This document shows positions 41,683-45,685 of a DNA stretch of 64,000 nucleotides, piece by piece. The notes under the pieces are model-generated. The model was not told where the DNA came from and ran no database searches. It saw nothing but the letters and a program-made list of their open reading frames with translations. This stretch comes from an uncultured Flavobacteriales bacterium (GTDB taxonomy: Bacteria > Bacteroidota > Bacteroidia > Flavobacteriales_G > Salibacteraceae). The translations under genes were made by a program, and so were the position numbers. Position 1 is the stretch's first letter; the number at the start of each line of letters is the position of its first letter. Where the stretch lies: the NCBI GenBank assembly GCA_905479105.1, contig CAJQLE010000003.1:372001-436000 (forward strand), written 5' to 3'.

Positions 41683-42699
41683 TTATTTCCCAGTGGTTGG
41701 GAAGTTGCCTTCTACTGGACGAACAAAACCAAAATATGGCGTTGAGATCTCTTCTTTAGGAATTTCATTGAATGCGCGATAAAACACAAAAGGTAAATCT
41801 TCAGATATTCCAGGGAAAAGCGTTGAAGCCATCTCATGCATTGCTTTATTTTCTGCAGCCAGAGCTGTTGTGTCTTTTATGTTAATATCACTGCGATACT
41901 TGATCATTGTGCATATTTGATTATCAACACGTTGAGGCATGATTTTGAAAATTTCAGGCTGAGTTGTAATTTCTGTAATCATTAATGGCATAGGGTAAAT
42001 TACTTGCGCTTTTTCAGTCAAAGATTGATTGAATGCATCCATTTCCGCAGCGATGCGATATTGCCAATTGTTTTCCGCAGGAGTCATGCATGTGTTGGAT
42101 AGCACCATGTGATTTATAGCGGGGATTAAATGATCTTTTCCACCCTCTTTTTCTGCCATACGAAACAATTCGGGAGCCGTAAACCCGCTGATGGTATACC
42201 TGCCAAACTGGAGTGTGTTTAGTCTCCATTGATCGTCAACACGCGTGTAAAATGTTGTGACCAAGTAGCGATCACCGTCTCGTTTTGGTTCTAAAATTGA
42301 TACAAATGATTCTTCAGAAGGACTGTGGTATTGTATGATGTAATCGTTGTCAGTTTCATTCCCAGAGATCACCGTTACATCATTTTGAGCTTCTTGTTTA
42401 ACTGTGTGGTATTCATCCACAGCACTAAACCCTTTTGATTTAATGATGGAACTTGTTTGCTCTAAAAATGGTGTTAAGGTTTCATTGACAGAAGCGCGTA
42501 GATCAGCAGTCATTAAATCGGTTAATTTCTTTTGATCTTTGTTTTTCAAAGCGTCAATAACAGCCGAATTTAGCTTTGTGATTTCATTCTTCACCAGAGG
42601 CCGGATGCTCTGATTGCGTAGCGTGCCTTCGTGCTTTTTACTGCAGCTGGCAAGCGAAAAGGTTAGGATGAAAATGAGGCTTATTCGGCTTAAGGTCAT
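41683..42699 (-). CDS. Hypothetical lipoprotein
   Basis: A 338-residue lipoprotein with signal MTLSRISLIFILTFSLASCSKK (lipobox LASC). I do not recognise the family. An N-terminal helical stretch (ITKLNSAVIDALKNKDQKKLTDLMTADLR) has the look of the small DUF3887/SnoaL-like domains that begin with 'number of uses per cell' helices, but this is weak. Two cysteines (NTCM, QICTM) lie in the second half. It is a single gene on the minus strand, convergent with the second Wzi-like gene and located just downstream of the type I secretion scar. Confidence 0.6.
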   Translation of the reverse strand: MTLSRISLIFILTFSLASCSKKHEGTLRNQSIRPLVKNEITKLNSAVIDALKNKDQKKLTDLMTADLRASVNETLTPFLEQTSSIIKSKGFSAVDEYHTVKQEAQNDVTVISGNETDNDYIIQYHSPSEESFVSILEPKRDGDRYLVTTFYTRVDDQWRLNTLQFGRYTISGFTAPELFRMAEKEGGKDHLIPAINHMVLSNTCMTPAENNWQYRIAAEMDAFNQSLTEKAQVIYPMPLMITEITTQPEIFKIMPQRVDNQICTMIKYRSDINIKDTTALAAENKAMHEMASTLFPGISEDLPFVFYRAFNEIPKEEISTPYFGFVRPVEGNFPTTGK

Positions 42700-42720
42700 G
42701 AATTGTCAAGTTTAGCTTAG

Positions 42721-42737
42721 AGCTTTAGTCTAAAGCT
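42721..42737. repeat. Short inverted repeat after the TolC remnant
   Basis: AGCTTTAG, one T, CTAAAGCT form a near-perfect palindrome that touches the stop codon of the TolC remnant. There is no T run, so it is at best a weak terminator, perhaps left from the lost operon. Confidence 0.45.
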
Positions 42738-43030
42738 TATTGGTTTATAAGGTTCAGGTAATATGATTCCTGGTTTGCGGTTTGAATTACTTTAAATGCA
42801 GCGCTTGTCTGCTTAGCACGAGTTTCATAAAGTTTTGCTTGAGCATCAAAAAGCTTGTTCTCCCGAGAATTCAATAAAAACACACTGCTTTCACCAATAG
42901 CAAACTTGGTCTTCTCTGCTTCCAAAAGAGTTGTATAATTCGTAGTCATTCGATTGTATAGACTGGCTTGCTGTGCATTGGTCTCAAAAGCAAATACCTG
43001 CTCATTTAGTTTGTTCTGGAGAGACCTAAA
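42737..43030 (-). pseudogene. C-terminal remnant of a TolC-family outer-membrane channel
   Basis: The last ~95 codons of a TolC-like protein remain in frame: LQNKLNEQV, NYTTLLEAEKTKFAIGESSVFLLNSRENKLFDAQAKLYE. The GESSxFxxNSRExK signature is typical of the second helical repeat of Bacteroidota TolC proteins, which are normally about 450 residues. The frame stays open upstream to a stop at 43124-43126, but that upstream sequence encodes, in another frame, the start of an ABC exporter. The first ATG in frame (42949) lies inside the homology, so a 70-codon ORF there is not a real gene. Confidence 0.75.
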
Positions 43031-43137
43031 GGAAGCGACAAATTGATAAGCCCACTTAATGCAGCAAAAAGGAAAATCCGAGTAATATCCTTTTGGTCGG
43101 CTTTTATAAGTCGAAACAATCGTTTAAGAGGCGGCAT
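43006..43137 (-). pseudogene. N-terminal remnant of a type I secretion ABC exporter
   Basis: Starting at an ATG at 43137 the minus strand encodes 38 codons (MPPLKRLFRLIKADQ..., SGLINLSLPLG) that match the start of the HlyB-like ABC exporters of Bacteroidota, including the beginning of the first membrane helix. After LPLG the homology ends abruptly, five unrelated codons follow, and the frame closes at 43006. TolC-type coding sequence in the next frame begins at the same point. In related genomes the order ABC-HlyD-TolC is usual, so the middle has been deleted. Confidence 0.7.
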
Positions 43138-43223
43138 GGGCTAAGATAATTTGTTGATTTTTTAATTGAATGCCAAAAATCCGACACGAATGCCAGTATA
43201 AAAAATAAAAAAATGTTACCAGA

Positions 43224-44432
43224 CTAGAGAATAGCGCTAATATCATCCAACATGCTGTTGAGCATTGAATGGTAATTGTATTTTTCTTTACTGATCGATC
43301 TACCTTGATCTCGAAGGGTGGTGGCGGTTTTGGTGTCATTTAAAACAGAAATTACGGTTTCTGCGAAGGCATCAATTTCATCAACAATATACGCATGCTT
43401 TTTGTTTTCGATTTCAATTCCCTCTGCTCCTACTGAAGTCGTTACTAAAGGAAGCCCTCTATACAAAGCATCAAAGGTTTTTATTTTCATTCCACTGCCA
43501 AATCGTAGAGGAACAATAGCACATCTGCATTTTTGCATTATAGGCTCTAAATCATCAACAAAGCCTAAGGGATTTACGCCTTTAGTTTGTTTCATTAATG
43601 AGGAAAGTGCTTTATCAGATCCGCTGCCGCATACATTCAGAATAGCATTGGGCTCTTTCGCATAGATTTTAGGCCAACAATTTTGAATAAACCAATGGAT
43701 ACCATCTCTATTGGGTTCCCAGCTTAATGTGCCAGCATAAAAAACTTCTTTTTTATTAGATTCCAAGTCTATAGGGTCGAGTTTGAGCAATGCATCATTC
43801 CCTAGATGATACGTAGTCCTAAATTGTCCCGACTCTAATCCAAGTTCGCTCATCAACGCCTCTTGATCATTCGGTGCAGCAAAGGTGAACGTTGAACGTT
43901 TAATGGCATATCGTTCAAGCTGCTTAACGCGACTTGCTTCCCATTCAAGCATCCATTTTATAAGAAACGTTCCTCGCATAGTCGCGAAATCAGACCAAAG
44001 CTTAAACTCAGCATTGTGACTGTGGTAAATGATTTTTCCTTTGAATTCCTCTGGGATCAAATCAATCGTTTCTGCATGATCCACAATAACAACATCACTA
44101 GCTTCAGCTGACCATTTTATCATCGTTTCTAGCTCTTTCGAGTAAATTCTAAAGGCATTGAAACTAGGGGCAGTCATCAATGCAATGAAAAAATTTATAC
44201 CCGTGCGCGGTTGATGATTGTCAAACACTTGCATATGCTGAAGTCCAGGAATAGCCTCTTTCAAAGCTTGCACAGCCTTCTTTCGTTTTCCACCAAAAGC
44301 ACAAATCAATTTTACATTGAAATGCGCTGTAAGAAATTGTAATAATCTAAAGGACTTGATTCGTCCTCCACTGTCCGGAGGATATGGCAACTCTGTGGTT
44401 ACGTAAAGTAATGTCGGTTTTGGTTGGCTCAT
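43224..44432 (-). CDS. Glycosyltransferase (group 1 / GT4 type)
   Basis: A 402-residue cytosolic glycosyltransferase with GT-B fold. The N-terminus LYVTTELPYPPDSGGRIKSF (about residues 9-28) is the acceptor-side glycine loop. The donor-binding C-terminal half has FYAGTLSWEPNRDGIHWFI (about residues 230-248) and the conserved block IVPLRFGSGMKIKTFDALYRGLPLVTTSVGAEGIE, where Glu-x7-Glu is partly replaced. Donor and acceptor are not predictable. Its start shares a base with the metK stop, so both may be cotranscribed. The nearest polysaccharide genes are 2-8 kb away. Confidence 0.88.
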   Translation of the reverse strand: MSQPKPTLLYVTTELPYPPDSGGRIKSFRLLQFLTAHFNVKLICAFGGKRKKAVQALKEAIPGLQHMQVFDNHQPRTGINFFIALMTAPSFNAFRIYSKELETMIKWSAEASDVVIVDHAETIDLIPEEFKGKIIYHSHNAEFKLWSDFATMRGTFLIKWMLEWEASRVKQLERYAIKRSTFTFAAPNDQEALMSELGLESGQFRTTYHLGNDALLKLDPIDLESNKKEVFYAGTLSWEPNRDGIHWFIQNCWPKIYAKEPNAILNVCGSGSDKALSSLMKQTKGVNPLGFVDDLEPIMQKCRCAIVPLRFGSGMKIKTFDALYRGLPLVTTSVGAEGIEIENKKHAYIVDEIDAFAETVISVLNDTKTATTLRDQGRSISKEKYNYHSMLNSMLDDISAIL

Positions 44433-45685
44433 TAAATGCCAAAGGCAGCTTTGATTTTATCCACCATATTCAATTCTTCCCAAGGGAATAACTTCACCGT
44501 TAAAGTGACACTTTCGCCAGAAACATTGACGAATGTCTTTTCTACTTCTTCGGTCAATCTGCCCATGTGTCCGTAGGCAGCAGTTTCTGAATAAATAGGC
44601 GTGCGAAGGTTAAATCGCTTTTCTATTGCGTAAGGCTTTAGATCGAATAATTCAGTTAATTTCTTAGCGATATCGCCATCACTCATTTCAACTTTAGATG
44701 TGCCATAAGTGTCAATGAATAAACCCACCGGTTTTGCAACTCCAATGGCGTAAGCCACTTGAACAAGTGCCTCATCAGCAACTCCAGCAGCGACCAAATT
44801 TTTTGCGATATGACGTGTGGCATAAGCTGCAGAGCGGTCAACTTTACTAGGATCTTTTCCACTAAATGCTCCTCCACCATGTGCTCCTTTGCCGCCATAT
44901 GTATCGACAATGATTTTTCTTCCTGTCAATCCAGTATCTCCATGTGGTCCACCAATTACAAATTTCCCAGTCGGATTTACATGGTAAACAATAGTGTCAT
45001 CGAACAAACTCTGAATGTGAGGCGGTAATTGAGCTTTTACGCGAGGGATTAAAATATTGATTACATCACTTTTAATCTTTTCGAGCATGCGCTTTTCTTC
45101 GTCAAAATCGTCATGTTGCGTAGAAACAACGATGGCTTCTATGCGCTGTGGTTGATTGTCGTCAGAATATTCGATGGTTACTTGCGCCTTAGAGTCAGGT
45201 CTCAAGTATGTCATTTCTTTACCAGCTTTTCTAATTGCAGCCAGTTCTCTCAACAATCTGTGAGAAAGATCTGCAGCTAAAGGCATGTAGTTTTCGGTTT
45301 CGTTGGTAGCATAACCAAACATCATCCCTTGATCACCAGCTCCTTGGTCTTCCTTATTCACTCTGTCCACACCTTGATTGATGTCAGGGCTTTGCTCATG
45401 AATAGCAGATAATACGCCACAAGAGTCAGCCTCAAACATGTAGGCGCTTTTTGTGTATCCGATTTTGCGGATTACTTCTCTAGCAATCGATTGAACATCA
45501 AGATAGGTTTTGGTTTTGACCTCCCCAGCTAATACGACTTGACCCGTAGTCACGAGCGTTTCGCAAGCAACTTTTGATTCTGGATCAAAGGCTAGAAAAT
45601 GATCGACTAAAGCGTCAGAAATTGCATCTGCAATCTTGTCTGGGTGTCCTTCTGAAACGGACTCGGATGTGAATAAGTATGACAT
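44432..45685 (-). CDS. metK: S-adenosylmethionine synthetase
   Basis: Makes S-adenosylmethionine from methionine and ATP. The 417-residue protein carries the N-terminal [20 protein letters not shown] (residues 6-25), the [12 protein letters not shown] hexapeptide region near 118, and [21 protein letters not shown] with the ATP-binding [19 protein letters not shown] loop. It is slightly longer than E. coli MetK, within the Bacteroidota range. A promoter box lies 20 bases upstream. With ahcY at 55.7 kb it covers two steps of the methyl cycle. Confidence 0.97.

Follow-up and report, generated by a model that had tools for sequence, protein, structure and literature searches.

The minus-strand region at 42737-43137 of the window, the whole stretch of 64,000 nucleotides analysed here, is very probably the non-functional scar of a single recent deletion of about 4.1 kb in a three-gene export operon. 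The event is ordinary gene loss. As in other bacterial deletion pseudogenes and operon-loss scars, one internal deletion appears to have left both outer ends behind and out of frame, and this scar is unusual among them solely in its freshness. Taken alone, it documents a single clean and recent loss of genes. Beyond that, it draws attention to an exporter family in which the ATPase domain is degenerate in all homologues aligned and, in some members, missing altogether.

Two operon remnants and their junction

The exporter remnant (43024-43137, minus strand) comprises the first 38 codons of an ABC exporter gene. Read from 43137 to 43024 its frame gives MPPLKRLFRLIKADQKDITRIFLFAALSGLINLSLPLG, followed by LSRTN and a TAA stop at 43008-43006, such that the predicted product is 43 aa long, the 38 codons plus five more read out of the frame of TolC. 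The TolC remnant (42737-43024, minus strand) lies in another frame and holds the last 95 codons and the stop of a TolC-family gene; it reads SLQNKLNEQVFAFETN...YYLNLINQ before the stop, and its longest ORF with an ATG start encodes only 70 aa (42737-42949). We infer that no useful protein comes from either remnant and that the capacity for this export has been lost.

BLASTX of 42700-43224 returned exactly two families. Residues 1-40 of the 570-residue exporter of genome G002, the closest relative examined, were matched in frame 1 (92.5% identity, E 3e-20), and residues 378-472 of its 472-residue TolC-like protein in frame 3 (89.5% identity, E 3e-55), with the two matches overlapping solely at 43024-43018. 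This result is far beyond chance. The first-pass annotation had placed 38 exporter codons and about 95 TolC codons, in another frame, on either side of a junction at 43022-43027, and both translation and BLASTX agree with it to within a few bases. It had also predicted that two families would meet near 43025, as they do, rather than one family spanning the junction. Alone, the TolC tail scores 18.4 bits against PF02321 (OEP), below the curated cut-off of 22, and therefore the decisive evidence comes from the syntenic intact genes described below and not from Pfam. An Rfam scan of 42000-44000 gave no match.

On the upstream side the remnants adjoin two conserved neighbours, a group 1 glycosyltransferase gene (PF13692; 43224-44432, minus strand) and a metK-like S-adenosylmethionine synthetase gene (44432-45685, minus strand), the latter named from its sequence. 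Downstream lies a predicted lipoprotein gene (41683-42699, minus strand), recognised by eye from the N-terminus of its product, which belongs to no Pfam family. This gene is untouched by the deletion, and in relatives it comes directly after TolC.

The intact operon in relatives and the extent of the deletion

We compared the region with 12 genomes of the same genus, in which the loci were located via the flanking glycosyltransferase and lipoprotein genes. In G002, whose neighbouring glycosyltransferase is 81% identical to that of the window, the order is complete: metK is followed, all on the minus strand, by the glycosyltransferase (L020:6057-7268), the ABC exporter (570 aa, L020:4258-5970), an HlyD-like adaptor (449 aa, L020:2903-4252), the TolC-like protein (472 aa, L020:1476-2894) and the lipoprotein (L020:427-1464). 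The same order is intact between the same flanks in G004, spread over two separate contigs in G008, and present with a frameshifted exporter in G011. The ancestral order ABC-HlyD-TolC, which the first reading had taken as the starting point, is thus found at the locus itself. In G011 the exporter frameshift lies near residue 79 (gene at L021:2332-4135, minus strand) and stems either from an indel error in sequencing or from a further inactivation of this operon. Pfam assigns the G002 genes above cut-off to ABC_membrane and ABC_tran (PF00664 and PF00005), HlyD_3/HlyD_D23 (PF13437/PF16576) and OEP (PF02321). No cargo gene was recognised beside the operon.

We propose that the ancestor carried an operon of ABC exporter, HlyD-like adaptor, TolC-like outer-membrane protein and lipoprotein, downstream of the glycosyltransferase and metK. 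The interior of the operon would then have gone in one illegitimate deletion, near-blunt and about 4.1 kb long, leaving exporter codon 38 joined out of frame to codon 378 of TolC as numbered in G002. On the scale of G002, 4093 bp is missing from the window, counted from the end of exporter codon 38 to the first TolC codon that the window still matches, and a single internal deletion, as had been suggested at first reading, suffices to explain the join. At the junction (43023-43026, minus strand) a codon comparison of the ancestral ends leaves at most about 2 bp that they could share, and no direct repeat was detected when the breakpoints were searched. Since the ends have so little in common, the deletion is illegitimate and near-blunt rather than a product of recombination between repeats. 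The heptamer TCGCTTC, seen when the exporter side of the window is set against the TolC side of G002, was considered as microhomology and rejected, because the window still matches the exporter protein (LPLG) past this point.

The missing genes have no intact copy elsewhere in the window's own genome (G000), which amounts to 2.79 Mb in 7 contigs with 99.85% completeness and 0.12% contamination. Across all 7 contigs, the G002 exporter finds no homologue at E<=1e-50 and the G002 HlyD adaptor none at E<=1e-10. At the same thresholds, complete or partial copies of the exporter occur in 7 of the 13 genomes (own included) and copies of HlyD in 8 of 13. The five ABC_membrane proteins of G000 share only 22-27% identity with the G002 exporter; other TolC-family proteins are present there and belong to other systems. 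The two operon ends meet in the window where relatives, between the corresponding flanking genes, carry the operon at full length. The window's junction occurs in none of the genus relatives, so that the short form is not conserved at the locus; its conservation as a functional gene was an outcome that the first-pass annotation had named as one that would count against it.

Age of the deletion and its probable reality in the organism

Synonymous sites have reached or nearly reached saturation between the window and G002, with pS of 0.56 over the 38 exporter codons and 0.95 over the 95 TolC codons. Nonsynonymous differences are few (pN 0.064 in the exporter remnant and 0.058 in the TolC remnant), and pN is higher in the intact flanking genes (0.116 and 0.154) than in either remnant. 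The 133 remnant codons contain no stop and no indel, and one amino-acid change can be assigned to the window's branch versus two to that of its sister. Because the remnants are free of stops and indels and their differences are mostly synonymous, the deletion is recent when set against the split from G002; the codon-level comparison thereby upholds the recent date given to the event at first reading. Had the remnants been unconstrained for much of the time since that split, pN would have come near to pS. We estimate, by reasoning rather than from a fitted model, that the deletion falls at most within roughly the last tenth of the branch since the split.

The near absence of decay is also what pieces of live genes would show, and the low nonsynonymous divergence fits a deletion made by assembly equally well. 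The operon might still be in the organism and have been collapsed by the assembler, or the join might be chimeric, or stem from a minority deletion variant or a mixture of strains. We consider such an artefact of assembly or binning unlikely, given a genome of 7 contigs that is nearly complete and hardly contaminated, and from all of which the exporter and adaptor are missing. Moreover, the join is one clean event in a conserved locus, with gene order and orientation correct, and its ends hold no repeat that could mislead an assembler. The deletion is therefore probably real in the organism. Nothing in the sequence contradicts its reading as a deletion scar, and the doubt that remains concerns assembly.

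The exporter family and other losses within the genus

The lost operon resembles type I secretion systems in its three-component set, and in G002 the exporter, the HlyD-type adaptor and the TolC-type channel are encoded together. The three proteins match the models TIGR03375 (LssB) and TIGR01846 (HlyB), TIGR01843 (HlyD) and TIGR01844 (TolC) with E-values of 4e-49 to 5e-12, although all of these scores lie far below the curated cut-offs. The description of the exporter as HlyB-like, made at first reading, holds in so far as it is HlyB/LssB-like by sequence; its ATPase domain, however, is non-canonical. In an order-wide alignment, the Q-loop Gln, the LSGGQ signature and the H-loop His are missing from all of the homologues aligned, Walker A is mostly retained, and Walker B with its catalytic Glu is altered, mostly to ED for DE and to WQES in G002, G004, G011 and G008. 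Arg replaces the Walker A Lys in G004, G011 and G008 as well as in two genomes from another genus. In contrast, the five other exporters of the own genome are essentially canonical in the same alignment, with Walker A, Q-loop Gln and H-loop His intact, the signature LSGGQ in four and LSVGQ in one, and Walker B DE in four and DD in one.

When 296 genomes were sampled across the phylum, 77 gave an exporter match at E<=1e-70. Of the 30 best loci phylum-wide, every one pairs a single exporter with a neighbouring HlyD gene, and these exporters too are without the Q-loop Gln, LSGGQ and the H-loop His. Homologues with such degenerate motifs include those at L020:4258-5970 and L022:4282-6009, both minus strand, and L065-L125. 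In four genomes, G281, G112, G198 and G293, the ORF of the exporter measures just 334-349 aa and breaks off shortly past the membrane domain, with no ATPase domain (L126:2033-3061, L127:5099-6103, L128:1955-3004 and L129:2025-3041); HlyD and TolC genes follow directly in all four, which makes this an NBD-less relative of a type I secretion operon. We tentatively suggest that the operon behind the scar was one of a family, widespread in Bacteroidota, whose ABC-exporter-like proteins are encoded with HlyD and TolC partners, may be unable to hydrolyse ATP normally and may have discarded the ATPase domain in some lineages. If so, the tripartite conduit would have to be powered or employed otherwise than in type I secretion. 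What drives the family is a testable question raised by its degenerate or missing ATPase domain. Titles and abstracts in an open-access collection held nothing specific on operon loss or on degeneration of the ATPase domain in type I systems of Bacteroidota, and such an absence is weak evidence.

A search with the TolC tail revealed a further scar, which lies away from the contig edges in G009 (L132:3341-3667) and keeps about 103 C-terminal TolC codons, with 68% identity to the TolC of G010. The gene after this tail encodes a membrane protein and, judged by eye, matches the one found behind the operon in G010; the contig of the G009 scar holds no exporter or adaptor remnant. In the G009 tail the conserved GESS.F..NSRE motif is changed (NVESSLFMVKSRE versus NGESSLFMVNSRE), changes which suggest decay. 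This scar is independent of that in the window, more decayed and apparently older.

That G009 independently keeps a TolC tail after losing the rest of the operon, and that the lipoprotein gene is spared in the window, might hint that the short form is retained for a function, for example with the TolC tail or its DNA serving the lipoprotein gene as promoter, leader or means of translational coupling, yet this is highly improbable, as a script search of the coding strand found no Bacteroidota-type -7 box (TAnnTTTG) in 42700-43240, the G009 tail is altered at its conserved motif, and the same short form recurs in none of the other relatives.

In G003 the glycosyltransferase adjoins the lipoprotein without any remnant, and neither G003 nor G012 contains an exporter (E<=1e-50) or an adaptor (E<=1e-10). 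Given the G009 scar and these absences, the operon has been either repeatedly lost within the genus or patchily gained. Two independent scars in one genus, together with the lack of a detectable exporter or adaptor in G003 and G012, suggest that the three-component operon is dispensable. In G010 the operon lies at another genomic location, and the gene upstream of it (L131:1147-1830) looks TetR-regulator-like by eye.
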